Below, one piece after another: positions 3,380 through 22,347 of a stretch of DNA of 22,347 nt. Where the stretch lies: positions 1 through 22,347 of the forward strand of contig JAHYIO010000034.1 in assembly GCA_020543525.1 (NCBI GenBank), in the 5' to 3' direction. The notes beneath the pieces are model-generated. The model was not told the origin of the DNA and made no database searches. It saw only the letters and a list, made by a program, of their open reading frames with translations. Source of the DNA: Coriolopsis trogii (taxonomy: Eukaryota; Basidiomycota; Agaricomycetes; Polyporales; Polyporaceae). The position numbers and the translations under genes are program-made. Numbering within the stretch: position 1 is the stretch's first letter; every line of letters begins with the position of its first letter.

Positions 3380-4105
3380 GTAATAGTGTTATGCGCCGTG
3401 AACTTTGCCCCAAGGTTCAGAGGTGACAAAATAGTTTGGGCCATAGCCGGCCAACCGTTGCTCGGAATCTTGGTGACAAGGGGTCCTTCCTATAGCCAAG
3501 AAGCAGGAGTATCCAACAGTGTTGGTTTTGTGGCTGTGCGCCCAGTCCCCATGGAGATATAGCCAGGTGACAAGCCTCAATGCCTTTTGGCACCGGGTGA
3601 CAAGCTCAGTGTGGAGCCCATTGTGACTCAACCCCTGGGCAGAACCCAGGTGACAAGGGGTCATATGAAAGCCAAGATACAAGGCTACAAAATGAGGGTA
3701 GAACCGGGACAATCCATGCAGTCTCTGTTGAGAAATGGCTTGTCACCTGTTGTCACTGGATTCTGAGGCAGAGTTGGTCCGGGTGGTGACAAGCTCATTG
3801 TGGCTGCCCCTCTGATCGGAACCCAGGTGACAAGGGGTTCCCTGGGAGCTATGATATATGGCTACAAAATGAGGGTAAGATGGTGGCAATCCATGGAGTC
3901 TCCGTGGAGAAACAGCCAAGTGACAAGCAGAGTTTGCGTTCTGGGACTGTCACCAAGGTCATTGAGAGCCTTGTGGGCCAACCGTTGGTCAGAACCTTGG
4001 TGACAAGGGGTCCTTTGTATAGCCAGAAAAGAGACGAATCCAACGGTACCCATTTTGTGTCTGTACGATGTGTCCCCATATAGAAACTGCCTTGTCACCT
4101 CCGGA
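3380..4105. repeat. Diverged satellite of about 177 bp, four copies
   Basis: A shared anchor, GGTGACAAGGGG, starts near 3472, 3649, 3826 and 3999, giving spacings of 177, 177 and 173. Around each anchor further text is shared: a GTTGGTCAGAACC-like lead, a TATAGCCA-like stretch about 15 bases on, CTACAAAATGAGGGTA in two copies, and a CCCCATGGAGA / TCCGTGGAGAAA block about 80 bases on, followed by a second GTGACAAG or its complement CTTGTCAC. The copies are clearly decayed. The small ORFs here are translations of the repeat, not genes. No coding sequence is seen between 3208 and about 4270. Confidence 0.8.
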
Positions 4106-4141
4106 ATATCGCATTCTGGCATGCTGGGTCTGGTAGATTGG

Positions 4142-4240
4142 ACCATGTGACCTGACCAGCTGTCCAGGTCATGTGACTAAACTTGCTAGCAGTAAGGAAG
4201 TATGGTCACATGACTGGGTCACCCACCATGTCACATGACC
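4142..4240. repeat. CATGTGAC-rich patch related to the 37-bp repeat at 18.7 kb
   Basis: CATGTGAC lies at 4144-4151 and 4170-4177, and its complement GTCACATG at 4205-4212 and 4230-4237. The stretch from 4168 (GGTCATGTGACTAAACTTGC, then AGCAGTAAGGAAGTATGG) matches the unit of the tandem array at 18669-18850, so this looks like an older, rearranged copy of the same subtelomeric repeat. Confidence 0.7.
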
Positions 4241-4299
4241 ACTTTGAAGGTGGTGCTGATACGTCCAAAGGATCAATGTTGGCATAGCCTGTTTATTAA

Positions 4300-5173
4300 G
4301 TTCTTTGATGGGCAAAAGCATGTATACTTGGACAGCAAGTTTGACTGGTGGTGCTCTGCTTGTGCTAAGTGGTCCAACAGTTCTTGACCACCTTGAGGGA
4401 TCACCATTGCCAACAATGAGTCTACCAACATTGTGCCTATCCTTCCTCCAGCCCCTCTGATCTCCTCCTCCACTACATTATCTTCCAAGTTGGTGCAGTT
4501 CAAGCATGTGCTCCTTGGACAACTCTTCCCCTAGGACCTTCTAGTACCACAGCTACAGCCAGCCACCACTCTGCCCAGGATGATTCAACGTGGAGCAGCA
4601 TTTGCTGAAGCTGTACAGGCTGCCAAACGGGCAAGGCTAGATAGGGAAGCACAACTACAGCCACTACTTGAGCGGTGGAGGAAGGCTTTGGACAAGTTTT
4701 CTGGCACTGTGGATTGTGCCAGATTACGAGGCTGAAGAACTACCCGGTGCAAGATCAGCACAACATTGTTCATTGTCCAACCATGGTGGAGCTGCTGAAG
4801 AAGACAAATGAGGACAGTCGGCGGACTGGTGGAGAGTACTTGGACTGGAGGAAGCAGCTGAGGTACTATGGGTCAATGGGTGCGTGCTCAAAGTGCCACA
4901 TACCGTTCCTTCAAGATCTTCTTCATCCTACGAATGCTGGGAAGGGCAAGGGGACAAGCTGCAACGTGGCATGGCTGGACATGATAGGGGCCAATGGTAT
5001 ACTGGGCATACTACTCCAATGAGTGGTGTAGGTTGGCTGAGAGGGAGTTTGGGATAAGTTGGGCAAATGATATGTCATTTGCAGCATGGTTGGTGAGTAG
5101 GAACAAGGATGAGAGGTATCTAAACATTGCTAGGTTTTGGTTGTGGTTGGTAGAGTGTTGGCTAAGGCAGTAG
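4300..5173 (+). pseudogene. Remnant of a telomere-linked (RecQ-like) helicase C-terminus
   Basis: No intact gene is present, but several open stretches form one degraded protein. Frame 2 at 4580-4735 has a basic helix (AVQAAKRARLDREAQL, LLERWRKAL). Frame 1 at about 4690-5022 has cysteine and histidine pairs in zinc-knuckle spacing (CGLCQ, HNIVHCP, CSKCHIPF), a W-RKQLRYYG segment and a LHPT-KGKGTSC motif. Frame 2 at about 4994-5173 ends with NEWCRLAEREFGISW and a WLWLVE tail. An earlier possible zinc pair, WWCSACAKW, lies near 4347-4373 ahead of two stops. This order is what I recall from the C-terminal tails of subtelomeric RecQ-type helicases in basidiomycetes; the helicase core itself is absent. 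At least one missing base near 4720 and one further frame change near 4994 break it. Origin is moderately sure, lack of function very sure. Confidence 0.55.
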
Positions 5174-5362
5174 GGTAGTGTTTGTGGTGTATTGAATTAG
5201 TTGTGTGTTGTAAGAAGTGTTGGTTGATTGTTTGGGTTATGAAGTGTGTACGTGAACTTAGGGGAAGTAGGGTTGATTATGTGTTGTGGGGGGGGGGGGT
5301 TGGTTGGTTGTTTTGGGTGTAGGGTTAAAGCTATTGGGTGTAGAAGTGGTGTGCAGAGGGGT

Positions 5363-5450
5363 TAGGGTTATGAGAGAGATTTGGTGTTCATAGGCTTGGA
5401 TAAACCTAGGGTTATGAGAGAGATTTGGTGTTCATAGGCTTGGATAAACC
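5363..5450. repeat. 44-bp direct duplication with telomere-like ends
   Basis: TAGGGTTATGAGAGAG and the following sequence to TAAACC occurs twice in a row, starting near 5363 and 5407 (period 44). TTAGGGTTA at 5362-5370, TAAACCCTAG near 5451 and AATTAGGGTTTAAA near 5477 are telomere-like words clustered in the same 120 bases. Confidence 0.8.
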
Positions 5451-5591
5451 CTAGGCTTGGGCAGGACCTAATCCTAAATTAGGGTTTAAATATCTCTCTG
5501 AACACATAGGGAGTTGCTGAGCATCATACACAGCAGCCAATCTTCTGCACTTGTAGTCCCACAACCGCGCATCAAGTAATATTTTGTAACA
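5364..5591. mobile_element. Possible solo LTR (copia-like)
   Basis: The block starts around a TTAGGGTTATGAGAG sequence, carries a TATA-like TTTAAATATCTCTCT near 5485-5500 and ends in TTTTGTAACA near 5591, which resembles the short LTRs of fungal copia elements. There is no clear 5' TG boundary, target duplication, primer-binding site or internal coding region, so this is tentative. Confidence 0.3.
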
Positions 5592-6209
5592 TGCTACTCT
5601 TACTAGTATTATGCAAAGGATTCTGATTGAATTGAAGGAGAAGTGCTAGCCATTATTTTTCAGTGTTCCTGAGAGCTTAACGTGGAAAAGTAGTTCACTA
5701 TAATATTGCTAGTATTGTAACACACCTACCGTGAACAATCCTTCTATGCTTCATTTTAGAATGCTTATTCCAGGCCTTGAACACACAGCTGGCTAGATGA
5801 TTGGGTTGCACCAGATGCTCCTAGGAACAGACCACCTAGAGTATCTCACACCTAGAGAAGATCATTGTCATTATATAGGGTCAGAAAAGCGTACACAGAT
5901 ACAGAGCTTGAAGAGGCTTGTGTGCATGCACTTAGTAGATTGTTAATTGCATACTTGTAATGCTGCATAGCAAAGTGCTCAAAAGCACTGCAGCTGGGTG
6001 TGTAAACTTGGTGGAATCCAGATCAAGCTGAGTAAATTTTTCTTGAGGGGTGAACAAGCTCCAGACCTGAGGAGCATTTGTTCTGCCACCTCTTTCAGAG
6101 TATGACAAGCTTTCAGAAAGCCATTAAATTATCAAGATATTTACATGGGACTGTGAGGGACATTAGAAAGCAAACCTCTTCAGAGTTGAGAGATACCTTG
6201 CCTAAATTT
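5592..6209. other. Gene-free AT-rich stretch
   Basis: Both strands are full of stops and no ORF above about 60 codons is seen. GCTAGTATTGTAACAC near 5709 echoes TTTTGTAACA with ACTAGTATT at 5580-5612, which may be another piece of the same decayed element. No other structure is recognised. Confidence 0.6.
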
Positions 6210-6685
6210 GGTGGTGTGTGAGGCTGGAGGAGGCTCACATGTGTGCAGTACAGTACGAGTTGTGCCTATGTGGTGCTGCATTACAAAGGACCTCAAGAGT
6301 ATGAGGCTTGAGGAAACTCATTGCGTACGGGCCTCGAGGAGGCTCGCGAGCGTGCAGTATAGTGCGAATTGCGCGCTTGTGGTGTTGCACTACAGAGGGC
6401 CTCGAGGAGGCTCACGCGCGTACGGAGATGAGAGGAAACTCATTGCGTACGGGCCTCGAGGAGGCTCGCGAGCGTGCAGTGTAGTGCGAATTGCGCGCTT
6501 GTGGTGTTGCACTACAGAGGGCCTCGAGAAGGCTCACGTGCGTGCGGAGATGCGAGGAAACTCATTGCGTACGGGCCTCGAGGAGGCTCGCGAGCGTGCA
6601 GTGTAGTGCGAATTGCGCGCTTGTGGTGTTGCACTACAGAGGGCCTCGAGGAGGCTCACGCGCGTATGGGACTCGAGGTTGAGTG
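6210..6685. repeat. 122-bp GC-rich tandem array, about 3.5 copies
   Basis: AGGAAACTCATTGCGTACGG starts at 6311, 6433 and 6555, a period of exactly 122. Each unit has GGCCTCGAGGAGGCTCGCGAG, a GTGCAGT(A/G)TAGTGCGAA core and then TTGCACTACAGAGGG, so GTAGTGC...GCACTAC can pair. A more diverged copy precedes them (6215-6310) and differs largely by C/T and G/A exchanges. ORFs over the array are repeat translations. The array lies downstream of the minus-strand gene's stop and marks the sharp change from AT-rich to GC-rich sequence. Confidence 0.93.
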
Positions 6686-6756
6686 TCAAAGGAACAGAAT
6701 TATAAGAAATTAATATAATACATGCATTGAACTATAATGTTCAGTTCAAGAGTCCA

Positions 6757-6822
6757 AGTACATGCGATGCGTAGTAGATACAGCGTTCAGTCCATGTCCG
6801 AGTACATGCGATGCGTAGATAC
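6757..6822. repeat. Short direct repeat beyond the 3' end of the minus-strand gene
   Basis: AGTACATGCGATGCGTAG occurs at 6757 and again at 6801, each followed by ATACAG, a spacing of 44. It lies just beyond the stop codon of the minus-strand gene and so probably in its 3' UTR. Confidence 0.75.
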
Positions 6823-6849
6823 AGAATGCCAGTCCGTCCGAACTCACCG

Positions 6850-9774
6850 TCAGTCAAGCCGATTGTTCGCCAGGAAGTCCTTTGCCCTGTCGTCCAGTCC
6901 CTTCTGCACCTTCTGCGCTGTGATCGCGTGCTTCAGCGAGCGTCGCCAATGCGTGGCGGTGCGAAGCTGAAACGTCCCATTGCGGATGGCCTTGAGGTGG
7001 TTGACGAACCACGACTCGCAGTACGGCGTCCAATAGCCGACATTGAGGCTACACTTGTCCCAAGTGTCGCACCTGGGCCACCATGACATGAGGTACACGT
7101 CGTTCACGTTTTGGCGTTGGTCTGCAGCACAATATTAGTCGATAATAATATATATGTGAGGGGAACTTACCGATAAACACGCGATAGACACCACAGATGA
7201 CATCGAGCTCATCTGGGGAGAGCTCGTTATCGTAACTGTCATTACCTCGCGTCGGTCGGAAGGCTTTGCCATGCACCAGCACGTCGAGAGAGGGACCTTC
7301 AGCTGCGAGGTCGGCGAGGTTCCCCTGCGTGAGCTCCATAGCCAGGCGCCAGATGATACCTCCTCTTCGAATAGCAGCTCGCGCACGAGGACTGCTCAGG
7401 ATGTCCCGCGCGCGAGTTTCGTACGCAGCGTAGTCGTACCTATTGAAGATGGTGTTGTGAGCGCGCCACCCGAGAACCGCTCGAATGGGAGGGGCCAGTG
7501 AAATGGGATCGCGCGGCGATGGGGTGTACAGCGTCTGGTGTGCGATGCCGTACTTGCTCACATATCGAGCGGCCTCCTGGCTTGTCTTGATGCTGTGTTG
7601 CCGGTAGAGCTGGAGGACGCTGGCAGGACTATACAGCATTAGATCCCATAAGCTCGAGGACTTGTCGTCTTTGTACCGGACGCGGTACATGGGCAGACTG
7701 TTCAGCTCCATGACACGAACGGTCATTTTCGGATGCTGGCGGTGAGGGAGCAGGAGGTACTCGGGATTGGCGGGCGCACAGTCCCAGAGGACTGGTGGCA
7801 GAGGGCTCTTCTCCAGGAGGGCATGGATGAAGGGACACAGGCACTGGACCTTCGACTCCTCGATCTTGAGGTCCTCGTCGAGATAGCCGAGTGTCTTGGC
7901 AAGCTGCTCGACGGGGTACTTCTTGACGGGTTGTGGTGGCGGTGGCTCGGACCAAATGAGACCAAAGCGTTGACGAAGGATGACATCAACGTGAGCCATG
8001 AAAGGAGCGTACTCGATGTCCTCGCGCTGGTAATATGCCTCAAGGTCCGTGCGGAAGGATGCAGCAACGGGTGTCGGGGGCGCCTCGTTTGCCTGGCTGC
8101 TGCTGGGCCCGGCGACAGCGGGGTCGGCGGTAGGGTAGCCGTCTGCGTCCCAGTCGTCGGGGTCGTCGTCGTCGTCGCCGCCCTCCTCGCCTGGCGCAAG
8201 CTTGGCGCAGATGTCCCATTCGTCAGCGAAAGAGTCGTACCTCTTTGCCGCTGACTATACATGCCCCACACGTCCTGGATAGCCTGGCGGCCGACTACCG
8301 ACCGGTAGTCGAGTTCCCACCACTCTGGATTGGAGGTCATATCGATGTCGATATACTCCTTCCAGAGGTAGACTCTCGTGGGGCGAGTCGGCTGTTTGAA
8401 CGTCTTGGCGATCTCCTCCCGCTTGAGACGGCGCGCGCGCGACTCCGGACTCTCGTTCTTTGCTGCTTGCGCGTTTTGCGCCGCGCGTCGAGCAAAGAAC
8501 TCCAGATACGACTCGCCCTCCCGTTGCCCAGGTCCGTGAGGTTTTGTTACCCCCTCGGAGACAACTGGCTGGGCGGGAGGGGCTTGCTGGGCGGGAGGGG
8601 CTTGCTGGGCGGTTGGGGCTTGCTGGGCGGGAGGGGCTTGCTGGGCGGGAGGGGCTGGCTGGGCGGGAGGGGCTGGCTGGGCGGGAGGGGCTGGCTGGGC
8701 GGGAGGGGCTTGCTGGGCGGGAGGGGCTTGCTGGGCGGGAGGGGCTGGCTGGGCGGGAGGGGCTGGCTGGGCGGGAGGCCACCGGAAGAACATCTCCGCC
8801 CCAACCACACGTGCTTGGCCGTGGACGTACACCACCCGCCCTTCTGCAACCGGAGGTATGTGGATGAAATGTTGCAGCGTGGGGGGGAAGTAGGGCTGGA
8901 GGAAAGGGAACTCGGCCAATACAGCCGAGATGGACTCCCTCGCTGGCCAAATGATGTACACCGGGAGGCCAGCGCGGATCATGCAGGGGACATGCTCCAT
9001 CCACGGTGTGCGAGCTGGTCCAGCACCGGGATACACGTAGCATCCCACGCGCAAACCGGGCGACAAGTCGGGGATGCGGGAGTTGCGGAAGAGGTCGACC
9101 CAGGCCGCAGGGACGTTCGCGCGGAGCAGTGCGTGTACCCAGCGGGGAGGGTCCTGGTCTGAATTGTCGCTACACAGTGCTACGCCCATTGCGCAACGCG
9201 CGGCGAGGATCGCGCAGGCGTCCCGAGACTGGCTACATGCGGCTTGTGCTGCCTGCCGCGAGCGATGGATTTTCTTGTACCCCAACTCGTGCGGGAGGGG
9301 CCAGTGGGAGTCGAAAGGAATCTTGGCCTCGGGTTTACCGTGTGCCGCCGAGAAAAGAATCCCGCTGATGTGGGTGAGGGACCGCTCGAGGTCGCCCCAT
9401 CGAGCCATGAGCTGGTCCGTGAGGCGAAACCCGCCTTCGACCTCGATGATCCTTATCTCCCGGATGTCCACGTTCAGCCGCGCGATGAACGTGCTCTCAT
9501 TGTCGTACCGCTTGAGCATGTACGCGAGCTCGGGAGCCTTGTCGACCACCCAGAGCGCTTTGCGGAAGTCCCTCCCTTCGAGGCTCCGCTGGGGTTCCCC
9601 GATGGCGTACACGGGAGGGACTGACTCGGCAGCGGAGGGATTGATGACCGTGTACCATCTGTTATTGTATTCGAAGGCACGGCGGGGAGCGTTTGTACTA
9701 GTAGACAGAGAAGCTGGTCAGTTGGTATACAATAGGCAAGAACTTCTAACATACCTGGCAGCGGGAGCACTCAT
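6850..9774 (-). CDS. Uncharacterised basidiomycete family protein with PPAQ repeat
   Basis: The start ATG is at 9774-9772. Exon 1 is only 20 nt (9774-9755), followed by a GTATGT...CTACTAG intron. Exon 2 runs from 9697 to 7171, a GTAAGT...CTGCAG intron follows, and exon 3 is 7121-6850 (TGA); the total is about 939 aa. The N-terminal half has a conserved-looking globular region (VPAAWVDLF, DLSPGLRVGCYVYPG, HVPCMIRAGLPVYIIWPARE). Residues about 311-382 are twelve PPAQ(P/Q)A hexapeptides. Then come EFFARRAAQ, a basic charged helix, YSQRQR/YDSFADEWD, a D/E run, and a C-terminal region with WWPRCDTWDKC, YWTPYCESWF and WRRSLK. I recall similar proteins of unknown function across Agaricomycetes but know no assigned domain. 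One base is missing near 8241, between QRQR and YDSFADEW. It is divergent from the SNF2 gene and shares its motif-rich upstream region. Confidence 0.9.
8570..8786 (-). repeat. 18-bp in-frame minisatellite, 12 units (PPAQ repeat)
   Basis: The plus strand repeats GGGCGGGAGGGGCTTGCT or the GGCTGG variant twelve times. The minus strand encodes PPAQPA or PPAQQA, with one PTAQQA unit. Codon phase is kept because 18 is a multiple of three. The plus (template) strand is very G-rich, with GGG-N-GGG-N-GGGG runs in each unit. Confidence 0.95.
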
Positions 9775-9934
9775 TATTGTATTCACGGCTGGGAGGGTGT
9801 AGGGAGGGTAGTTGAAGGGCTAAATAAGAAGTCAGTACGCACTCTCGAGCCGCATGCTTGAAAATTGGAGCGTACCAGGTCGAAGAGTCAGGTATCGGTC
9901 CGAGCGCGATGCGATAGAGTCGAAGAGACGCGCG
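9775..9934 (-). promoter_or_regulatory. Proximal upstream region of the minus-strand gene
   Basis: This is the 160-bp stretch between the ATG of the minus-strand gene (9774) and the first CTATAC-core motif copy. It has no other ORF. The role as promoter and leader is inferred from position. Confidence 0.4.
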
Positions 9935-10380
9935 CAGTATAGCCGCACACGATCTCGAGGCCGGGAGGAGGGGAACCTTGGACTTGAGGAGTCGAAGAGA
10001 CGCGCGCAGTATAGCCGCACACGATCTCGAGGCCGGGAGGAGGAGAACCTTGGACTTGAGGAGTCGAAGAGACGCGCGCAGTATAGCCGCACACGATCTC
10101 GAGGCCGGGAGGAGGGGAACCTTGGACTTGAGGAGTCGAAGAGACGTGCGCAGTATAGCCGCACACGATCTCGAGGCCGGGAACCTTGGGATTGAGACTT
10201 GAGGAGTCGAAGAGACGTGCGCAGTATAGCCGCACACGATCTCGAGGCCGGGAGGACGGGAACCTTGGGATTGGAGCTTGAGGTGTCGAGGAGACGTGCG
10301 CAGTATAGCCGCACACAATCTCGGGGTGGGTGGAGGGGTTGGGAGGAGACGTGTGCAGTATAGCCGCACACGGTCTCGGG
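9915..10380 (-). repeat. 72-bp tandem array carrying the CTATAC motif, seven copies
   Basis: CAGTATAGCCGCACAC starts at 9935, 10007, 10079, 10151, 10222, 10301 and 10356, with spacings of 72, 72, 72, 71, 79 and 55. The full unit also contains GATCTCGAGGCCGGGAGG, GGGAACCTTGG and GAGTCGAAGAGACG. On the minus strand the core reads GTGCGGCTATACTGCGC, so it points toward the minus-strand gene at 9774. Units degrade toward the right. Simple ORFs through it are repeat translations. Confidence 0.95.
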
Positions 10381-10815
10381 GCCGGGGATCGTCGATGGAG
10401 GGGCGCGAGAGGGGGAGAGGGTGGCGGATGGACGGCGTGCGGGAAGCGCGAGTTATGCAGTGAGCGAGGTGGAAGGCGGGAGCACAGAGGAGGCCCTTGA
10501 GGGCATGTTGGACTTAGCGAAATCCCGCCTCTGTTTGGTCGTGTTGTCGTAGACGCCGGCGGGTGCGCTGGCAGAGATGATCTCCTGAGATTAGATTAGA
10601 CTTCAGAAGAGATTATCGCTTCGCGAAGTCAATGTGCCTGGAGATAAGATTGAATTATCAGATTGGCTACAAGGTTGGTTGTCCGAGAATCTCCGACTTG
10701 GCTTCTCGTGAGAATCCTAGCCACGTGATCACCCTGGGACGTTTGCATGGGACCCACAAGTCTCGCTAGCAGTCTCATTGTCCTCTCTATCCGACTACTC
10801 TCTCCCATCACTCTG
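10381..10815. other. Centre of the divergent intergenic region
   Basis: This separates the two oppositely oriented motif clusters. 10560-10760 is AT-richer and dense in GAGAT/GATTA words (GAGATTAGATTAGAC, GAGATTATC, GGAGATAAGATTG), with palindromes CTTCGCGAAG at 10619-10628, GAGATGATCTC near 10574 and GTGATCAC near 10725. No credible ORF is present. Confidence 0.6.
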
Positions 10816-11121
10816 GTCGTGTGCGGCTATACTGCGCACGACTGTTGGCGACAACCCTACGGCACTTTGGGCGACACTACTCTGCGTTTGTATGCGGCTA
10901 TACTGCGTGCAAACGTGTCTAGGCGACACGACCCTCTCTGCGTTTGTATGCGGCTATACTGCATGCGAACGTGTTCTAGGCGACGCGACTCCCCACTAGC
11001 TCGTGTGTGGCTATACTGCGCACGGCCGCCGACGACTCTGCATACGGATGAACCCCCAGACAAGCCCTTCAATCACCTGGGACTCTTTCCTGGCTTGTGT
11101 GCGGCTATACTGCGCACGGCT
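10816..11121 (+). repeat. Plus-oriented CTATAC motif cluster, five copies
   Basis: GCGGCTATACTGC or GTGGCTATACTGC lies near 10823, 10893, 10950, 11006 and 11101, pointing toward the SNF2 gene. The best copies read GTGCGGCTATACTGCGCAC, in which GTGCG and CGCAC can pair around GCTATACTG. The intervening sequence also repeats in part (GGCGACACGAC, TCTGCGTTTGTATGCGG). Spacing is 57-95 bp and less regular than in the 72-bp array. Confidence 0.9.
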
Positions 11122-12140
11122 ATGGGAAAACTTTGCCCCGCGCGACCTCCGAACGACATGGCCCACCTCGGAAGACATGCCAATCGAGCGCAATATCCCT
11201 TGTCCTCGTATGTTCGCTTCCTAACCCACCTGACACCTCTGCGGACTTGCTAACCCACCCGCACCTCGCATTCTTGCAGATCTCATGCGTCACTTAGACG
11301 CAACGACGCCCCACCTTCGTTCGGACAGTCCATGCCGCTCGCCTCACCCAACAGTCTCTCCATCCGGGCTCCATCCTCATCTTCCTCCACATCCTCAGCC
11401 AACATCTCCTCTCTCCTTTGGCACGCTTCCCTGGCTCCTCTTCAAACCCAATCGACCGACGCCCCTCTCCTACTTGACGATCAGATGTCCTCCGCCTCGT
11501 CGTCATCTTCGTTCCTCGGCCGCCATCCTCCCGAGAACTGACTGGGCGCTGACGCTGCTCGTTTCAACATTTGGAGACCCTAGCGAACTTATCGGCAATC
11601 CAGCCTCGTGCTCAACGCACTTACAGTGCTTGGCACTCCAAGCCTCCACCGCAGTACTCGCATAAACTCTCTGGAGGACGCGTGAAGTTCTTCTGGCGGA
11701 ATCGGGATCCTCTCGTCTGGTAAGTACGGGCATTAATTGCATGACGCCATACTCATCGCACAGCGCGCGTAAGCAGGCCTCCTCGAGCCCCAACGCACGC
11801 ACGCACATACGCGTACGTGGCGCGACGGCCCCGCATACCGCGCGCGCAGAGGCTTCCACGAGGCCCGCTCTCTGCACACCCGCGGGTCCTCCCAAATCCG
11901 GATTTTTGGGTCGGACGGAGTATCAAAGCCCCGCATGGTTAGGTGTGTATGTCGATCGATCGCGATCTCTCTTCCACTGGCTAATTACTCGGCAGCACGT
12001 TTTCGCGCACACTAAACAGTGATGGCAGTTGCTCGGACCCGACCCTCGCAACCCCATTTTTCGGGAGATATCTAAGACGCAGCCAAACCCCCAACCCCCC
12101 TCCCTCCTCCCGCCCGGTTTCTCTCCTGTCTGCGTGCTGT
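11122..12140 (+). promoter_or_regulatory. Long C/T-rich upstream region of the SNF2 gene
   Basis: There is no convincing gene here. The plus strand is C/T-rich (11290-11510), and a consensus-looking intron, GTAAGT...CACAG at 11720-11763, could belong to a spliced 5' UTR. The short ORFs in both orientations lack family resemblance. Confidence 0.35.
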
Positions 12141-12142
12141 CT

Positions 12143-12222
12143 GTCTGTGGCTATACTACAGGCATACTTGCACCACCCGCGCTTCCCTCTGCGTGTCTTC
12201 TGTCTGCGGCTACACTGCAGGC
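12143..12222 (+). promoter_or_regulatory. Two promoter-proximal CTATAC-type motifs
   Basis: TGTCTGTGGCTATACTACAG near 12141-12160 and TGTCTGCGGCTACACTGCAG near 12201-12220 are variants of the cluster motif, 60 bp apart, and the second ends about 60 bp before the SNF2 start codon. The core contains a TATA-like CTATAC, so a core-promoter role is possible. Confidence 0.5.
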
Positions 12223-12279
12223 AGATACACCGAGCCCTGTCTGAAATCCTCGCAATCTCTCGTCCACACCTCTGCCAAC

Positions 12280-15200
12280 ATGCCCACCGACAACCTTATG
12301 GTCTCGTTCCTCGAGCTTTCCCGCCTCGACAAGAAGCAATTTTCGGAGCCTGCGCCATGGTTCTGGCCCCAGTTCTGCGAGCGCAGCGGCCGGCAACGTC
12401 CACCATGGGTCCCTTCCGCGACACCCGAGTCAACTGGTCTCAAACAGGATCAATTGAATGCTATCGTCGCCTTCGTCCACGCCTACCATGCCCGCGAAGA
12501 CTATGCCGAATGTCTCAAGTACTCGAAGAAGCCCGACGCCAACGACAAGGATGGACGACAGGCCCTTGGGGCGTGGATCAACTCGTTTGCCAAGCGCATC
12601 CGTTGGAACCAGTTCTTCGACGAAACCATGGCTGAGTACGATCTCAACTCGTACTGCGTGGCAGCCGACGACGGCGAGAAGGTAAAACGTCGAGTCAAAT
12701 TCCCCACAATGTTCGTTACCGCTGACACAATGATTGCACAGTTTACTCCCATGGAGGAGAGCGGTGTTGCCAGTGCGAACAAGCAGCTCGTGATGAACCT
12801 CTTCGGCCAGGACGGCTTCCGACGCAACGGTAACCTGCTGAAATCGGAAGTGCACAAGTTCGTTCAGAGCACGTGTGCCCTCATGTGGCGTCGTTGGCGA
12901 AGGTCCTACACTTATCGCCTCACCGCCTTGCAAAAGGCGGAGAAGGAAATGGAGAACGCTCGCTCGAAGGTCGAGGCCTCACCGAACGACCCTCCGGCTG
13001 CACGCCGGTATTTCGACAAGCTGGAGACGTATTACCATCTACTGAAACCCTTCCGAGATGAGAAGCACAACGAGGATCGCGAGAGGGGGAAGCTCGAGCT
13101 CGAGTCTCTCCAGGCCATTGTCCGCGAAGGGGAGGACGCTCCGGTCAAAATCAGTAGGTTACCCTCTTCCGCAGGCAAGTAATCCACTAACACGACGAGC
13201 AGAGATTCCTCCCGCCTTGCGCAAGGCTCTCGCCCATCTCCCCACCCCCAAGGATGTCGACAGCGTCCTCCACGCCATCGCGGCTGCTATTCAGGCATTG
13301 GGGGACGATGTGGACGGAGAGATTCCCGTCCGCCACGCCGAGTTCGATATCAACCATTGGTCCGAGGGCGTTGAACACTATTGCAACACCACGCCGGAAG
13401 AACTCGACGCGTACTTGGGGATCACCGATGGCTACCTCGAGGGCTTCAACCAGACTGAGGACCCCGACGGTGCGACAGATCCTTGGACGAAGGAGGGTGA
13501 GAAAGTGCTGAAGTCTCCGTCGGCACTCCCCCTCCGCTTGCGTTGGCATCAGCTCATCGGGGTCCTGCACATCATGGACCGCATGTTCGAGGGGAAGCCC
13601 GTCCTCGTCATGGACAATGTCGGCGTCGGGAAGACCATCCAGGGCGTCGGGGTCATCACGCTCTATGCGTTCTTTCGCGCGTTCTTCGAGACTCGGGGCC
13701 ATTTCCCTGGCAAGTTCTGTAGGTTGTTTGATGCCCAGAGTGTGTTTTCGCTGTACTGACGTTCGTGTCGTTTCTCAGCGAAGAAACAGAACACTCCGGG
13801 CCTTGATGAAGATGGGAACCTGCCCAAACTACCATTGATGATCATCTGCCCCCCCGGCTTGGTCGACCAGTGGATCACTGAGCTCCACCGCTTCCTCATC
13901 GCTCGTTCTTTCGGTATCCTGCCGTACGTGGGCGCGTGCACCATGGAAAACCGGAGCGCATTCTGGGTCAAGTGGTCTGAGCTCAATTGCAGCGCAGATC
14001 ATTGTATTGTGGTTGCGAGCATGTCGGTGCGTATCCACTGCTCTCGTTGGGTTCTTTGGCATATTCAATGATTTGGGATAGGCCGTCAAAGCCGATGCTA
14101 CCGCCTGCCTCGTCAAGAACCCCCACAAGCTCGGCAGACCCTCCCGCGCACCCGGCGGGAACCAAACCCTCATTAACAAGACACTGTTTGCCGAGGGTCG
14201 CAAGTGGGGTGTGTGCATCATCGACGAGGTACACATGGCACGCAAGATTAATCAGCTTTACCTTGGTTGCTTGGAAATCCGCCATGCGAGCTTCATGACC
14301 ATCGGTCTCACAGCGACGCCAGTGATGACAACCCCGGAGGTAATGTTATATCTCCTGGACATGCGTAACGAGACCTGACAAGAGAATAGGACCTCTGCAA
14401 CCTGGGTCTTCTTCTCGGCTTTGATTATTTCACCGAGAATGCCGAACTTATGGATGGACATCGACGTGCCCTTGCACGCGGCATTCGCAACGACGGCAAG
14501 AATCGCAAGACCTTGGAAGAGACGGCTGAGACAGCTAACGCGATCGTGCATGGCAAGGCTCCCGAAGAGATGGCGAGCGAGGCTCGCGACGCTGCTAGCG
14601 AATGGTTGGAGGACATACGGACGGGCTATCAGGGCGGCATCATCCGGCGCACCATCCACTCCCTCGACTGGCAACGCCGTCCCATCTCCGGCCTCGACGA
14701 CTACCACGAGATCTTGCTGTTGCTCAAAATGACGCCGCAGGAGCGGCTGTGCCAAGAGCTCCTCACAGAACGACTCGCCAGGGACTCCGGCATAATCCGC
14801 GGCAAGAAATTGGAGGTGAGTCTCGTCTAACGATCTACGCAAGCTGTGTGCGCGCGGCTCGCAGCGTGCCTTCGAGATTGCTCACTTTATTGTATTTAGG
14901 CGTTTTATCTCGTCTTCCGGCAATCGATCTTGAACCCTGCTCTGAGCTACCTGCCTCAGTTCGCGTGGGACCCACGCACGGACGTGTATGCGAATCACGC
15001 CTCCACGAAACTGGACACCTTGCGCACCCTCCTTCAGCACCACCTAGCCACCCCTGGTGCACCTCCTCTGAAGGTAGCCGTGGTCGGTCCGGACAATCAG
15101 CTCATTCCTGACGAGCGGTATCTACCTGGGGGCGAATATCATATTGTTCAGAGCATTGCGCTCGGCCACGATCGCGTCGTCGTCTTTCTTCAGTTCCCGA

Positions 15201-16378
15201 AGAACAATTGGGTGGTCATTGCAGTATGTTATTCAAATAGAAAGATCAGTTTGGTCGCACAACACTAACGAAGCTATCACAGTGCCTTGAAGCTCACGAC
15301 ATCGCGTACATTGAGATCAACGGGGAAATGTCGCCCACGGCACGGCACCGTGCCTTGAAAACCTTTAAGGAGTCCCCTGATATTCGCGTGCTTCTCCTCT
15401 CGGGTGTGGGAGGCGTGGGCCTCAACATGGCCTTCGCGAATATCCTCATAATCGTTGTATGTGTAGCAGTTATCATCGGGAATTCGTATGCTGATATTGC
15501 TCTAGGATCCGGTGTGGTCGGCACAGGACGACGCGCAGATCAAAGGACGGGTCCACCGCCATCTGCAGAAGAAGCGGATCATCGTCTACAAGCTCCTCAT
15601 GAGAGGGACGTCCGATGTTTTCATGGACACGATAAGCAACGGGAAGGCTATGATGCATCAAGCATTCATTGGAGATGACAGCCCCCTTGGTTAGTCCACC
15701 AAAAACACCACACCGTAGTATTCTAATTGTCATACAGAGCGTATCATCAACGAGGACGACGAGGACGACGATGATGACGATGATGATTCAAGCGAAGCTT
15801 CCGGGGGAGAGGACAAACAATCGGCCGAAGACAAGAAGGGCAAGCGCAAGGCAAAGGCTACGGAGACTAAGCCGCGGGAGCCCAAGAAGCCCAGGACCGT
15901 CAAGGCCAAGGAGTCCAACAAGGAGAAGCCGAAGCCCAAAGCGGCCGGAAAGGGTGGAGGCAAACGGGGAGGCAAAGCCGCAAACTCGAAGCCTGATCGA
16001 ACCAACGATACGTCGTTGACCGCGAGTCCAAAGGCGGCTTCCTCGAGGCCCGAGGACGCGCTTGTCCCTCCGAGCGCCTCGACTTCCGCCAACCCCAGCG
16101 GCGAGCCCACATCGACGGCCGTATCGACAACTCGCAATGCAGAGGGGGCTTCCTCGAGGCCCGAGGACGCGCTTGTCCCTCCGAGCGCCTCGACTTCCGC
16201 GCACGCCAACGGCGAGCCCACCGCGACCCCCGGTTCCACAAGCCCGACTGCAGAGGGGGCTTCCTCGAGGCCCGAGGACGTGCCTGTCCCTCCGACCGCG
16301 GCGACTTCCGCGCACGCCAACGGCGAGCCCACCGCGACGCCCGGATCGACAACCCCCAGTGCAGAGGGGGCTTCCTAG
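12280..16378 (+). CDS. SNF2-family ATPase/helicase
   Basis: The start is ATG 12280. Ten exons are separated by introns 12682-12741, 13154-13202, 13719-13778, 14027-14081, 14340-14389, 14816-14899, 15224-15282, 15457-15505 and 15690-15737. The spliced frame is exactly 1195 codons, so the gene looks intact. All core motifs are visible: I, DNVGVGKT (Lys about 415); Ia, ICPPGLVDQW; II, DEVH (about 574-577); III, GLTATP; a RRTIHSLD segment; and in the second lobe VVVFLQF, V (GVGGVGLN, about 903) and VI (QIKGRVHR, 931-938). Such ATPases translocate on duplex DNA and remodel chromatin or other protein-DNA complexes. The acidic run EDDEDDDD, a Lys-rich stretch and three 37-aa Ser/Pro/Ala repeats form the tail. 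Oddities are DNVGVG for the usual DEMGLG and DEVH for DEAH. No reader domain is recognised. Divergent neighbour: the minus-strand gene at 9774. Confidence 0.94.
16037..16378 (+). repeat. 111-bp in-frame repeat at the SNF2 C-terminus
   Basis: GCTTCCTCGAGGCCCGAGGA starts at 16037, 16148 and 16259, a period of exactly 111 (37 codons), encoding ASSRPEDALVPPSASTSA and following residues. A fourth copy begins at 16370 but reads GCTTCCTAG, so the stop codon sits where earlier copies have TCG. Confidence 0.95.
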
Positions 16379-16399
16379 TGTTATAAACCGTGGAATTAA

Positions 16400-17060
16400 C
16401 CCCAAGCTCCATGGAGCCGGATGGAGCCGGGCTAAAGTAACTTGAATAACTCTTGAAGGAATGAGCCTAGCCTGGAGCCGGAGGGGACAATCTGATAGCT
16501 CTGCCTTTCCTCTATCCAGTGATACCACTGGTATGTGCATTGGTTGCCATTTGACCTTGCTACAGAGCTTGCAATGTCCGGCTCCACTGTTTGGGGGTAG
16601 AGCCGGGCCAAAGTAACTTGCATAACTCTTGAAGGAATGAGCCTAGCCTGGAGCCGGAGGGGACAATCTGATAGCTCTGCCTTTCCTCTATCCAGTGATA
16701 CCACTGGTATGTGCATTGGTTGCCATTTGACCTTGCTACAGAGCTTGCAATGTCCGGCTCCACTGTTTGGGGGTAGAGCCGGGCCAAAGTAACTTGCATA
16801 ACTCTTGAAGGAATGAGCCTAGCCTGGAGCCGGAGGGGACAATCTGATAGCTCTGCCTTTCCTCTATCCAGTGATACCACTGGTATGTGCATTGGTTGCC
16901 ATTTGACCTTGCTACAGAGCTTGCAATGTCCGGCTCCACTGTTTGGGGGTAGAGCCGGGCCAAATTAACTTGAATAACTTTTGAAGGAATGAACCTGGCT
17001 TGGAGCCAGAGGGGACAATCTGATAGCCCTTGCTGTCTTCTATCTAATACATCCAGAAAG
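16400..17060. repeat. 176-bp satellite, about 3.7 copies
   Basis: GAATGAGCCTAGCCTGGAGC anchors lie at 16459, 16635 and 16811, with a diverged copy at 16987, a period of exactly 176. The first three are almost identical and the fourth is decayed. Each unit has GGAGCCGG / CCGGCTCC in opposite orientation and the hairpin-forming CCAGTGATACCACTGG (first copy 16516-16531). The minus-strand ORFs of about 100 aa are only read-through of the satellite, since 176 is not a multiple of three. Confidence 0.95.
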
Positions 17061-17360
17061 ATGTTTGTACTCAGAAATTCTGCCAAGTTATCATATGATC
17101 TTTGCTTTCAATTGTACATTTATTACGCATTTTTGCATATTTACTATCAGAATCAGGTTCCTTGATTAGACTGAGAGGTGCATCTGATTTTATTAGCTGC
17201 CAGGGAGCTAACAGGGTTATATCAGTAGCTGTAATCATAGACTGGGCCAATAGTCATACCAAACTGACCAAGAAGATCTAAGAGTTTCCAGATCTTTCTA
17301 GAAGGTTTCATACCTTTTATGAGTGCCCCATTAGAGTTCAGGGTACAATGTGACATCACA
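17061..17360. other. AT-rich spacer
   Basis: This lies between the satellite and the promoter of the next gene. No gene, RNA or repeat is recognised. A short minus-strand ORF at 17222-17437 has no recognisable features. Confidence 0.5.
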
Positions 17361-17405
17361 GGGCGCTCAAATCGCCAAATAAGCGCCCAAAACTCGATAA
17401 ATAGG
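17361..17405 (+). promoter_or_regulatory. Inverted repeat and TATA-like box before the 17.5-kb gene
   Basis: GGGCGCT and AGCGCCC form a perfect 7-bp inverted repeat with a 14-nt spacer at about 17361-17388, followed directly by CGATAAATAGG near 17395. A pyrimidine-rich leader then runs to the ATG at 17517. The layout suggests a promoter. Confidence 0.5.
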
Positions 17406-17516
17406 CCCCCTTCCTGCCACACACACACTCTCTCCACTCACTCATTCTTCTGCCACTCATCTCTCTGACCTCCTTCTAACCTCTTTCTGCTCTGTTTCCT
17501 AGTCTCTGCTGCCCCC

Positions 17517-18430
17517 ATGGAGGAAGACTTTGCTCTCAACTCTCCCCCTTCCTCCCCCCTCCTTCTCCTCCCACCTGGCAGCTCCACCACTCCAGGTTTA
17601 CTGTGGCCTCTCCCCAGGTCTCCAGGTCTAACCAAGCACTCTGCTGGGTGTATAGGCCTAACCACCCTCATTTTATTTCTGATTGGGTAGTTTTGGCAGT
17701 GTACATTCCACCTGAGGCTCACCAAGATGGAGTGGATGAGTTGAACTTCTACTGGATTCCTTCCAGATTTGAAGGTCCTCTACTTCTTCTCTCTGCTGTC
17801 CTGGCCTCCTACAGTCCCCATCTTGAGCTTCCTCCTCTCAGAAAGATCACCAAGTGGATGGCTAACCAGTATGCCACTGCTACCTCTGTTATGGATGAGG
17901 TTCTTGGAGAGATAGAGAATCTACCAGGCTTTTTGGTTATGCCAGATAGAGGTGAGTCATTTTTTCTTCTTCATTCCACATTTGGTTACACCATTTTCTT
18001 TAAGAACCCCCCACCCATACTCCTCAAGAACTTGCCCAATTCCATCATCTTATCACCCTGCCCTATCTCACTCAGTGGTATACTGAGCAGCTCATGATGG
18101 GCTACAGTCTCAAGCCTCAAGTTGCACAAAGATTGTTGGCTGGAAACCACTATCTTCTAGACTGGTCTTGCCTCTCAGGTGAGTGATTGCTGGATATATA
18201 CTACTAGTTTGTGTGCTTATTCTTTTCCAGACTGGGAACACCTCCACAGGTGGGCTCTGATGGTAGAGAGTCACCTCTGTCTCATTCCCAAGGTGGTGAA
18301 GGCTCTAACCAAGGCTAAGGCTGAAGTTGGAAATGTTCTCAACTTCATGGAGTCAGCTAAAAGAGTTAATGCTCTTTTTACTGATGAGTTGAAGATTTCT
18401 GAACATCAGTGTCTTACTTGGATTAATCTG
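17517..18430 (+). CDS. Telomere-proximal gene of unknown function, 3' end unresolved
   Basis: I do not recognise the family. The ATG at 17517 (MEEDFALNSPPSSP) follows a TATA-like box and a C/T-rich leader. The main frame (VSRSNQALCWVYRPNHPHF) is joined to it only if one base is missing in the C run near 17554-17559. Introns are clear: 17952-18004 (GTGAGT...TTTAAG) and 18179-18230 (GTGAGT...TTCCAG). They link exons reading THTPQELAQFHHLITLPYL, WYTEQLMMGYSLKPQ, DWEHLHRWALMVE and KALTKAKAEVGNVLNFMESA. The last clear exon ends at a perfect GTAAGT donor (18431), but I cannot find a convincing next exon before the 37-bp array, so the gene is probably truncated at its 3' end or continues in short exons I cannot see. 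Codon use is AT-richer than in the SNF2 gene. No transmembrane or catalytic motif is seen. Confidence 0.65.
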
Positions 18431-18668
18431 GTAAGTCTGAATATATATTCTAGTTGATTGTGATGATACTTACAATTATGCAAGGCAAAGTAGTTGTAAT
18501 TTCCAAGCTATCCTTTAGTCACACTTTCCACTATTTGTAGAGCTTGATGAATTAGTTTGAATTAACCTACCATCTGGAGTGTGCCTGGTCAAATCACAGA
18601 GCTATTGGGGAAGCAGAATCAGAATATAACCAGCCTAAAGGTCACTTTTCACTTAATAACAGCTATAA
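18431..18668. other. Spacer after the last clear exon of the 17.5-kb gene
   Basis: It starts with the splice donor GTAAGT and is AT-rich with stops in all plus frames. It may be an intron with its downstream exon lost, or a 3' remnant. Confidence 0.4.
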
Positions 18669-18850
18669 GGAAGTTTGGTCATGTGACTCAACTTGCCAGC
18701 TGTGGGGAAGTTTGGTCATGTGACTCAACTTGCCAGCTGTGGGGAAGTTTGGTCATGTGACTCAACTTGCCAGCTGTGGGGAAGTTTGGTCATGTGACTC
18801 AACTTGCCAGCTGTGGGGAAGTTTGATCATGTGATCTAAATCTGAGATTT
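18669..18850. repeat. 37-bp tandem repeat with CATGTGAC, five copies
   Basis: GGAAGTTTGGTCATGTGACT starts at 18669, 18706, 18743 and 18780 (period exactly 37), with a fifth, diverged copy at 18817 reading GATCATGTGATC. The remainder of the unit is CAACTTGCCAGCTGTGG, which includes a CAGCTG E-box-like word. The same unit occurs, decayed, at 4142-4240. Confidence 0.95.
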
Positions 18851-18859
18851 GATTATCTC

Positions 18860-19098
18860 ATCATCTATTTAAATAGTTCAGCCACTGTCAAACTTCTACT
18901 CTCATCTTTTGATCTTCAACCACTATCATCCCCCATTCTACCATCATAGTAAGTCTTCTTTTAGTTATACTTTAGCTTATTCAACTACTTACAATCTATA
19001 TAAAGCATTCTGCCAACCTATCAGCTTGTCACTGGTACAGTTGTTATTACTAAAATGTGCACAATTTGCTAACCAACCATAACCAATAGTCAGACAAT
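18860..19098 (+). promoter_or_regulatory. Promoter and leader of the terminal gene
   Basis: The TATA-like TATTTAAATAG near 18866 is followed by a C/T-rich leader. A likely 5' UTR intron runs from GTAAGT (18949) to CCAATAG (19089), ten bases before the ATG at 19099. Confidence 0.5.
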
Positions 19099-22000
19099 AT
19101 GTCCTCCACCTCAGCCTCTACTTCTACTATCATTCCCACCTCAATCTCCTTTGACCAGGCTACTAAACCTGAGATCTACTCCTCTCTGTCCTCTGCTGCA
19201 GTGGTGGATATAGTCAAGACTGTCTACCCTCAGCTTCAGGATCCAGGTCTAGAGGATTTTAGAAAGTTGTTGCATGCCATTGCTCATGGGCCCTGTCTTG
19301 CTTCCATCTATGATGTGAAGCCCCATAAGGACCAAAGACCTCTGGATACTGAGGCTGTCTCCAGGCTGATTACCAAGCTTGCAGATTCAGATCTCAGACT
19401 CAAACATCCTGCTTTTCTCATGGTTCCCACTACTGTCTGGCAGAAATTCCAGGCTGTTCAGACCACCCACACCACCACACTCCTGGATCTTCCTATGTGT
19501 GATCTCACCACTTGTGGTGAAGATTATCCTGTGTCATTCACCCATGGGCACAGGTTTAGAGCTCTTAAGCAGTCTGTGGAGAATAAAGATGCATGGGCTG
19601 CATCTATCAAGGAGATATATGGGGAGAAGCTTCTGTGGCCATTCCTCCTTATTCCCTCTTGTAAGTGTGGTACTTTTTCTGGACTGTATTCTACTTCATT
19701 CTAACCTTTCAATTAGGCCTGAAGGAGGTTATTCCTGATCAACTATGGGCTACCTTCATTTTGGTGGATAATAAAGTGGACAAGCAGCTTATGGCTCTAT
19801 CAGAGCCCCAGTCCTGTGTCAGCTTCATTTTTGCTCTTCACCATCTCTACAAGCAACAATTCCTCCTAAATGGCTCTTATATCCCCACAAATCTCCACCA
19901 CTCTGCTCTGTCTATCCAGTACAACTCTGCCAAGTCTATCCACCTTCATGGCAACACTTCCTCCATTCCTGGTGAAGGATGTCTTTCACATCCCAAGATT
20001 CTTGGCAGCTTGGCACTTGCTTTCTCTTCTCCACCAGCTAGAACATATTTCACCAAGAAGTCTTTGGAGTTTATTGCCAAAAGCAACTGCTGGGTAAGTG
20101 TGTTTTTGTAAACAGATATATTTTGACATATGCTTACTATTATTCAGCCTTTTTCCACTTTCTTGCACCTTGCAGCTGTGCAGCTTACACCATTTCAAGA
20201 AGCCTCATGGGCATCTTGGAATGTGCTCAAGCATTCTCACAGAGATTCCATTGTGTTTTGCAATCTCAATCTTGCACAGCTCAGTCAACACAATAGGAAT
20301 GGTTATACCTTTGTATATCATTCTCATCCTACTGAGACTGAGAAGTTCATTGAAAGACTAGAAAGGGGAGATCCTGCCTCCTTGTGGTCTTTCAACCAGT
20401 CTATCAGACCAACTGGATCCTATAACTTTCTGAAACATTTGGACAATGGAGATGAGGTGAGTCTTAGATATATACATAAGCAGTATTAGACAGCTGATTA
20501 TGCAACAGGTCATGTGGCTGAAGTTCTTTGGCTCCACTGTCAAACAGACCAGAACCTACTTTATCAATCTGATACATCTAACACACATTGTGAGTTTACC
20601 TTATATTTCTGATCACTTATCTATCTAACAGATTATAGCTTGTTTGGGTCTTGGCAGGTCCTGATATTGCAGACATGCTAATGAACACCAAGAAGAATAG
20701 ACCTCCAACATCTGCCTTTGGCTTATTCTCCTTCTGGAGATCAGCTGATGGGATTATTCTTGCATATCTTCAATGTGCTGAGGCAGCCCAAAAAGGTCAA
20801 AAATCAGTCAGTCTCCCTAGTATAGGCACACCTCTTGGAGAGATCTACAATAAAGCCACATCTGAGCAACTTGAGAAGCTGCACAAGGTGAGTTAAATCT
20901 ATTCTTTTATGTTAATTACTTACATATGGATTAATCTAGCTGGCTTTGCTCCTCATTGATTGTGGTCACATTCTGCTAGAGGCTCTCCCAAAGGATCTTA
21001 AGCATCTTAGGGATAATCACTCCTCCCAGGAGGATTCAGAAGCATACTACTATTGGTGCTCTGATGGAACTCCAGCTCTTCATTCCTCTGATGGACTCAA
21101 TGCCCCTACTGGTTCTGCTACTTGCAGAGGAAAACTCTCTCCTATGCGCTATTCTCTGCAACAGCTCCCTATACCTCATCCTGATCTTCATGTTTCCTGC
21201 TATGCTCAAGCAGTTAGAAATGTGGTTCAGCATCCTATCTGGCAGGTTGTTTTCTTCCAGATTCTAAAGGTTGACCAACTGGTTAATCCTGGAGACATCT
21301 GGTTGTTGAACACCTATGCAGATATTACACCACCTCAGCCTACTATTCCCCCATCTCTTACTGGTCTGCCATCAAATCACTCTGCTTCACTTCCCAACTC
21401 TCCCTCTAGTTCACCTGCTCCTTCCATTCCAACACTCTCCAGAGACTCTTCACCTCTGAACAACTCTTCTTTTGATCCACAGTCCAAACTCCCTGCTACC
21501 TCATCTCCTTCACCCTCCCAATCTAATCCTGGCTCTTCATATCATCAAGTTGTTAACCCAACACATCTTCAAGTCTCTCCTAGTCAGCCCTCATCTGTTG
21601 CTCCCAACTCTCACACTCCCTTAAGCTGTGAACAACAAACTCCCTCCCATTGGTCTCCTACTCCTCCAAAGGCTGTACATTCTTTCCACACCAATCTCAG
21701 CCCCTGTCCTACCCATCATGTCAGTTGGCAGCAAGACTCTTCTGATGAAGAAGAGGATCAGCTTGCTTCTGATGATCATCCTCTTCCAGCTCTTCTCCCT
21801 CTCCTTGTAGCTAGCAAGCAGCACAAGCAATCAATCCAAGAGAGAGCAGAGAAGAGGAGGGAGCAACCAACAAAGATGATACATAGGAGAATGCATATGA
21901 AAGAAGTGCAACCAGAGGAAGAGGACCAGGAGGACCAGCACCAAGAAGAGGAGGAAGAGGAGGAGGAGAACCAGGAGGCCCAGGACCAGAAGAACCAGGA

Positions 22001-22347
22001 TCAAGAGGAGGACCAGGACCAGGACCAGGATCAGGAGGAACAGGACCAGGACCAGGATCAGGAGGAACAGGACCAAGAGGAGGAGGAGGAGGAACAGGAC
22101 CAAGAGGAGGAGGAGGAGGAACATGAGGATGAAGAATATGATGGAGAAGAAGAACTAGAACATCAAGAACAAGAGAAGCAGCATGAACAGGAGAGTCTGG
22201 GGAACTTGGAGCAAGGAGATGCAGAACTAGAGACACAAGAGGACCAGGAGGCTACTGTTACTCAAGCAAGCAGGAAGAGAAAGCAGAGGATTAGGGTTAG
22301 GGTTAGGGTTAGGGTTAGGGTTAGGGTTAGGGTTAGGGTTAGGGTTA
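19099..22347 (+). CDS. Terminal gene of unknown function, frame open into the telomere
   Basis: I do not recognise the family. ATG 19099 follows a likely 5' UTR intron. Exons are 19099-19660, 19717-20093, 20184-20456, 20509-20589, 20658-20887 and 20940 onward, all with standard GT/AG borders. Exon 4 fits exons 3 and 5 only if one base is missing near 20508; the alternative frame then reads HVAEVLWLHCQTDQ and joins PDIADMLMNTKKN. The last exon is open for 1408 nt to the window end. It contains ALLLIDCGHILLEALPKDL, a Ser/Pro-rich linker (about 21330-21700), an EE/DD patch, a long Glu/Gln/Asp tract (about 21900-22230) and RKRKQR, then runs into AGG-GTT codons of the telomere (Arg-Val repeats) with no stop. 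About 958 codons precede the telomere. The acidic tract suggests a nuclear or scaffold protein, but this is a guess. Confidence 0.75.
21912..22110 (+). repeat. Low-complexity GAG/CAG/GAC tract coding Glu/Gln/Asp
   Basis: Purine-rich imperfect repeats of GAGGACCAGGACCAG type occur here, with GACCAGGATCAGGAGGAACA duplicated 24 nt apart near 22023-22066 and GACCAAGAGGAGGAGGAG duplicated near 22071 and 22098. Codon phase is preserved throughout. The minus-strand Pro/Leu ORFs are its shadow. Confidence 0.85.
22291..22347 (+). repeat. Telomere repeats, (TTAGGG)9.5
   Basis: There are nine perfect TTAGGG units plus TTA to the end of the window. G-rich strand polarity shows that this is the right-hand chromosome end. 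The junction sequence is GCAGAGGA directly before the first TTAGGG. Confidence 0.98.

Follow-up and report, generated by a model that had tools for sequence, protein, structure and literature searches.

The last gene of the window, which belongs to a fungal gene family, was very probably truncated: the chromosome end would have been lost, and telomerase would then have capped the DNA inside the gene. The window comprised the entire contig C31 (22,347 bases) of a 38.8-Mb assembly of 39 contigs. The observations behind this reading were an open frame that continued into the telomere repeats, the junction itself, a relative of the gene with additional exons and a stop codon, and other chromosome ends that were cut at different points. 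Below, C31 is the window contig, the suffixes L and R denote the left and right ends of a contig, and w precedes a window coordinate.

Structure of the terminal gene and its open frame

The terminal gene was modeled on the plus strand, with six exons from 19099 to the contig end and GT-AG introns of 49 to 56 bases. The exons of the spliced model and the terminal array were as follows:

19099..19660, plus strand, exon 1, with the ATG at 19099; near-identical copies on C1R and C30L and a 31% relative on C5
19717..20093, plus strand, exon 2; 377 nt, equal in length to exon 2 of the C5 relative
20148..20456, plus strand, exon 3; the C1R and C30L copies break inside it, at 20205
20509..20589, plus strand, exon 4; alignable to the C5 relative
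20639..20887, plus strand, exon 5; alignable to the C5 relative
20940..22290, plus strand, last exon; 450 codons without a stop
22291..22347, plus strand, terminal TTAGGG array; about 9.5 repeats, in the Arg-Val phase

The predicted product had 976 residues ahead of the repeats and then continued as Ile-(Arg-Val)n. Its last exon encoded a Pro/Ser-rich part followed by an acidic Glu/Asp/Gln tail, which ended in ...SRKRKQR at the telomere. The original prediction was that this exon stays open into the TTAGGG repeats, and the analysis confirmed it: the stop-to-stop frame at 20940-22346 was open for 469 codons and ran off the contig, and 450 of these codons (20940-22289) preceded the telomere. The junction was GGA/TTAGGG at 22290/22291, with the first TTAGGG at 22291 and an ATT codon spanning the junction.

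We compared the length of the open frame with that in dinucleotide-shuffled sequences. For 20940-22286, none of 5,000 shuffles reached the real 449 codons, and the longest frame was 222 codons. In the part before the acidic tail, none of 5,000 shuffles reached 267 codons and at least one reached 266 (the second-frame maximum), while the full 182 codons of the acidic tail alone were reached by 14 of 5,000 shuffles. Thus, the frame-length test had less force when the exon was split in two, above all for the acidic tail. A simple pattern scan of the last exon found no GT[AG]NG donor, and the four AATAAA-like hexamers that were sought were likewise absent; such a hexamer is a weak sign in fungi.

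The phase in which the frame entered the repeats had been described as the one phase without a stop. The parts of this claim concerning endless Arg-Val codons and an immediate stop in another phase held, but the Leu-Gly phase was open as well. Because TTAGGG can be read without a stop in two phases (Arg-Val and Leu-Gly) and stops in just one, an open entry phase was no special coincidence.

Directly upstream of the gene, at 18669-18834, there was a 37-bp repeat in 4.5 copies that were 99% alike. This repeat had one copy fewer on C1R and C30L.

Copies and relatives of the terminal gene

A comparison of the 3' ends of other copies in the genome, which the original prediction had proposed, showed that the gene ended differently in different places. 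The first two exons and the beginning of exon 3 were also present on C1R and C30L and were >99% alike apart from the copy number of the 37-bp repeat. Both copies broke at w20205 in exon 3 and were followed directly by a subtelomeric element (element X, described below) and then by the telomere. DNA and protein searches of the genome located the last exon on C30 and C31 and nowhere else. They revealed no copy with DNA past 22290 and no internal copy in which a stop directly followed RKRKQR, C30 being the single other place in the assembly where the last exon was found.

A more distant relative was located about 17 kb inside contig C5, the left end of which had no telomere in its terminal 400 bases. 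The splice model of this relative had eight exons, 1,031 amino acids, and an ordinary stop. It was colinear with residues 21-764 of the window protein (27% identity, E value of 2e-57), and all five intron positions of the window gene were shared by the C5 gene, which then had two further exons and the stop. Beyond residue 764, the tails of the two proteins did not align. The candidate for a longer counterpart of the interrupted sequence was this 27% relative, and no close copy extended past 22290. At the end of exon 3 of the C5 relative, the splice junction lacked a canonical GT in the model, and the C5 gene or its splice model may contain an error there. Database relatives of the C5 protein were two hypothetical proteins from Lentinus tigrinus and Cerioporus squamosus, both of which are polypores; this suggests that the window genome belongs to a polypore as well.

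Searches for a function of the terminal protein

No Pfam family was matched by the 976-residue protein, by its N-terminal part, or by the relatives P0001 and P0002. The C5 relative gave one chance-level Pfam match below the cut-off (Glyco_hydro_48, E value of 0.044). At an E value of 0.001, neither the window protein nor a four-sequence alignment retrieved anything in protein searches. Two weak matches (E values of 0.00052 and 0.015) from a profile search against solved structures were set aside; they involved the low-complexity C-terminal part. The N-terminal part gave a ParB-like impression that had no Pfam support, and an AlphaFold model of P0001 with P0002 had a mean pLDDT of 32.6, too low for use. 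A search of plasmid sequences with the gene region as the query was negative, as one would expect of a fungus.

The window and contig C30 probably represent one chromosome end

The right end of contig C30 shared its sequence and its junction with the C31 end. In a base-by-base comparison of two stretches (9,208 and 9,736 columns, 18,944 in total), the contigs had no mismatches, and 13 of the aligned columns were indels. The region at about w9726-13124, which lay outside these stretches, was 100% identical in sequence searches. We considered whether C31 and C30 could be two independent telomeres that share one junction and rejected this idea, given 0 mismatches and differences that were only indels. 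The indels look like sequencing error in one chromosome end that was assembled twice. Because C31 repeats the C30 end, it was not treated as an independent second end.

The same kind of duplication was observed for other small contigs. As far as compared, C29, C31, and C32 duplicated the ends of larger contigs (C28R, C30R, and C33L, respectively), and sequence matches suggest that C35/C34 and C37/C36 are probably further cases. Such duplication means that counts of genes and telomeres at the ends of this assembly may be inflated.

Subtelomeric elements in the window

Proximal to the telomere, the window carried the following subtelomeric features:

3384..5369, plus strand, internal copy of element X; proximal boundary at GTGTTATGCGCC
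5370..22290, plus strand, long subtelomeric block (Y-like) of ~17 kb; starts after the telomere-like seam GGGGTTAGGGTT (5358-5369)
13760..15678, plus strand, helicase-like gene pieces in the block; Helicase_C above the cut-off at 15241-15678

A second helicase-related match, SNF2-rel_dom at 13760-14071, was weak and below the cut-off. The order of elements was therefore element X, the telomere-like seam, the helicase-bearing block, and the telomere. This order resembles that of the Saccharomyces cerevisiae subtelomere, in which an X element and a telomere-like seam are followed by a long Y' block with a helicase gene. The likeness is in element order only, and the pieces here match Helicase_C and, weakly, SNF2.

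A genome search with element X gave 34 matches, many of which were near contig ends. On C1R, C3L, C28R, and C36R, its copies formed a shared chromosome terminus that ended in ...TTTAGTAGGG. The proximal boundary of the element was compared at six places (the window, C1R, C2L, C3R, C30L, and C32L; the C3R copy was a diverged piece). It was fixed as CTA/GTGTTATGCGCC at five of these six, and the window had ATA instead of CTA. The flanks to which the element was joined differed and included the middle of exon 3 of the terminal gene on C1R and C30L. Element X may be mobile or may be copied onto broken ends. A Penelope-like or MoTeR-like nature of the element was also considered as a conjecture.

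The start of the long block was also found in more than one setting. The sequence ATGAGAGA lay directly after GGGTTAGGGTT or a GGGTT seam in the window (5358-5377), on C9R (1279-1297 of L054), and on C6L after w14053. From their sequences, it is as if subtelomeric blocks had been attached to telomere ends or to telomere-like sites.

Other chromosome ends are cut at different points

We counted contig ends that had at least four exact telomere repeats and inspected their sequences. Among the 100 listed of 128 repeat matches, there were at least 16 distinct telomere-bearing ends, and this number may fall short for the contigs that follow C32. The 16 ends were C1R, C2L, C3L, C3R, C4L, C4R, C6L, C7R, C9R, C11L, C20L, C28R (the same as C29R), C30L, C30R (the same as C31R), C32L (the same as C33L), and C36R. 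C6R and C34R, which had two consecutive exact repeats, were outside the count, as were C8L, C38L, C39L, and C5L, which had no terminal array in the bases shown.

An intact X terminus was present at 4 of the 16 ends listed (C1R, C3L, C28R, and C36R) and absent from the other 12. At the window junction, the telomere lay directly on nonterminal sequence without this terminus. Several ends carried the long block, cut at the following points:

w5599, on C9R; telomere repeats attached directly
w8427, on C7R; telomere repeats attached directly
about w10048, on C4L, ambiguous within 72-bp repeats; telomere repeats attached directly
w14053, on C6L and C36L; on C6L, another sequence, starting ATGAGAGA, attached before the telomere
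w20205, on C1R and C30L; element X attached
w22290, on C30R/C31R; telomere repeats attached directly

In addition, C2L and C32L were cut within element X. Two other ends were cut in gene-like frames: on C4R, a frame of 295 codons (L032) entered the repeats in the Leu-Gly phase, and on C11L, a frame of 420 codons (L055) entered in the stop (TAG) phase. Neither frame had a Pfam match, and the entry phase of each could differ if an intron lay close to its end.

These ends suggest that most of those listed, the 12 without an X terminus, resemble scars of end loss and recapping more than one fixed terminus, and that such events also cut genes. The window gene is one case in this genome-wide pattern of ends that look trimmed and recapped.

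We also scanned 17 ends (15 distinct) for forward frames of at least 80 codons that ran into the telomere. Such frames were found at six distinct ends; the entry phase was open at C30R, C4R, C7R, and C20L and stopped at C11L and C4L. Three of the six frames look like genes in our judgement, which is a small number: the C7R frame was antisense to a window open reading frame, and the C4L and C20L frames are probably not genes. The entry phase was considered as evidence of selection and rejected, given that two of three phases are open and that the six ends were divided four open to two stopped, in agreement with a chance expectation of 2/3.

Short telomeric seeds at other junctions

The telomere-like seed at a junction could be determined where the template was known. 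It was 1 nt on C7R and 0 nt on C9R and C4L, and both of the junctions with 0-nt seeds ended in C. On C30L, the seed was 1 nt, or 0 nt with a second possible template. On C2L, the colinear template at w3488 gave 1 nt, and the best-match rule, which chose w4015, gave 2 nt. In the case of C32L, a seed of 3 nt was assigned by eye, and a scripted search found no template.

Similar seeds have been described in the blast fungus, in which 19 of 24 new telomeres in rDNA had seeds of 1 to 4 nt and a terminal C was present on five of six truncated elements that lacked a seed, according to the sections of PMC7367193 used here. The pattern at these six ends (0 to 3 nt, with a terminal C on C9R and C4L) resembles the blast fungus pattern in those sections (PMC7367193).

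Alternative explanations for the junction

The original prediction had offered two accounts of the junction, namely, chromosome breakage healed by telomerase and a gene type whose C terminus is normally telomere encoded. The former was supported by the longer C5 relative with its extra exons and stop and by the many ends at which telomere repeats lay against internal sequence. The latter, in which the gene regularly takes its C terminus and its end from the telomere and (Arg-Val)n is a regular part of the protein, is extremely improbable. Although the open phase and a last exon with neither a GT[AG]NG donor nor an AATAAA-like hexamer would fit it, two of three phases are open in any case. Moreover, the two additional exons of the C5 relative lead to an ordinary stop, the copies on C1R and C30L break at another place and continue into element X, and the gene-like frame on C11L enters the TAG phase.

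It is also very unlikely that the junction is an assembly artifact, that is, a chimeric contig end at which telomere reads were stuck to internal sequence. C31 is a redundant 22-kb contig with indel differences from C30, and the terminal arrays are short (24 to 90 bp), as such an artifact might produce. However, the same junction is present in both assembled versions, which may rest on the same reads, and similar joins occur at many ends, where 1- to 3-nt seeds or terminal C residues resemble those of fungal cases in the literature; chimeras should not reproduce this. Finally, break-induced replication or subtelomere exchange could have copied the truncated gene, together with its telomere, onto this chromosome from a different end. 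Near-identical subtelomeric segments are common to C30R, C30L, C1R, C36L, and C6L, and C1R and C30L have one join of element X at 20205 in sequence that is >99% alike, both of which point toward copying between ends. Such an origin for the window junction is nonetheless unlikely, as its last exon and junction were found on no other end of the assembly except that of the duplicate contig.

A proposed order of events

End loss followed by capping by telomerase would account for the window junction as follows. Either breakage or attrition following telomere failure would remove the distal part of a chromosome end with a long subtelomeric block. The DNA end thus exposed would fall within the last exon of the terminal gene, and telomerase, the presumed agent, would add TTAGGG there. 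At other ends, telomerase would cap at a small seed, or another subtelomeric piece would join (element X or the block starting ATGAGAGA next to GGGTT). An end that falls in a gene would remove the 3' part of that gene; in the window, the lost piece would be expected to contain the stop codon and 3' end signals along with the remainder of the coding region. The open telomere phase at entry would be a matter of chance (2 in 3).

Because the entry phase is open, an RNA that ran to the chromosome end would have no stop. RNA without a stop is expected to be destroyed by nonstop decay, and the transcript of the terminal gene would probably be such a nonstop RNA, subject to degradation or poor translation. 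An RNA into the telomere is conceivable because the gene points to the chromosome end without a stop or an obvious 3' end signal, but judging from the sequence, a promoter-driven RNA that runs into the telomere and carries a UUAGGG tail is unlikely. If such a telomere-reading RNA were translated, then the product would be the 976-residue protein with an (Arg-Val)n tail, the length of which would follow telomere length. The cut frames on C4R (Leu-Gly) and C11L (stop) would be natural counterparts for nonstop and stop outcomes, and the three outcomes among the cut gene-like frames (Arg-Val, Leu-Gly, and stop) would provide a natural test of what happens to messages that enter telomeres.

Similar chromosome ends in other organisms

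In Plasmodium falciparum 3D7, telomere repeats lie inside truncated subtelomeric var coding regions at four chromosome ends (PMC5550746). The likeness to the ends described here is that telomere repeats are in a coding region and that several ends of one genome are involved. With respect to the portions of that report used here, the differences are that the present organism is a fungus with TTAGGG repeats, the cut gene matches no Pfam family, and the frame stays open through the repeats.

Terminal truncation, de novo telomere formation, and nested truncations are also on record for Pyricularia (Magnaporthe) oryzae (PMC8381367, PMC7367193). In the excerpts of those papers used here, the shared features are nested subterminal truncations at different points and short seeds at most junctions. 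The P. oryzae events were documented across strains with raw reads, whereas those described here were deduced from different ends of one assembly. The window case is in line with what malaria parasites and the blast fungus already show.

Among mushrooms, Agaricus bisporus has polymorphic chromosome ends with subtelomeric helicase genes, some of which are truncated (PMC7473861). It resembles the present fungus in having repeated helicase genes at its ends, both complete and truncated in A. bisporus. Its helicases are RecQ, and the parts of that paper used here do not describe telomere-in-gene joins; in contrast, the pieces in the window match Helicase_C and, weakly, SNF2.

A keyword search of open-licence papers (titles and the starts of abstracts) did not find a fungal protein frame that runs in phase into a telomere. 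In mammals, TERRA is reportedly translated to valine-arginine and glycine-leucine repeats (Al-Turki and Griffith 2023). The two open phases of TTAGGG would give the same two dipeptides, but here the repeat would be fused to a protein frame predicted from genomic DNA.

Additional observations in the window

Two further repeats were located within the long block. A 176-bp repeat (3.4 copies, 97% alike) was present at 16424-17027, between the helicase-like gene and the gene that follows it. An 18-bp repeat (11.7 copies) at 8568-8778 encoded Pro/Ala/Gln-rich repeats in a long minus-strand frame. At the innermost part of the window, positions 1-957 contained a piece of a glycine cleavage T-protein gene (GCV_T_C and GCV_T), which indicates that ordinary chromosomal genes start within about 22 kb of the telomere.
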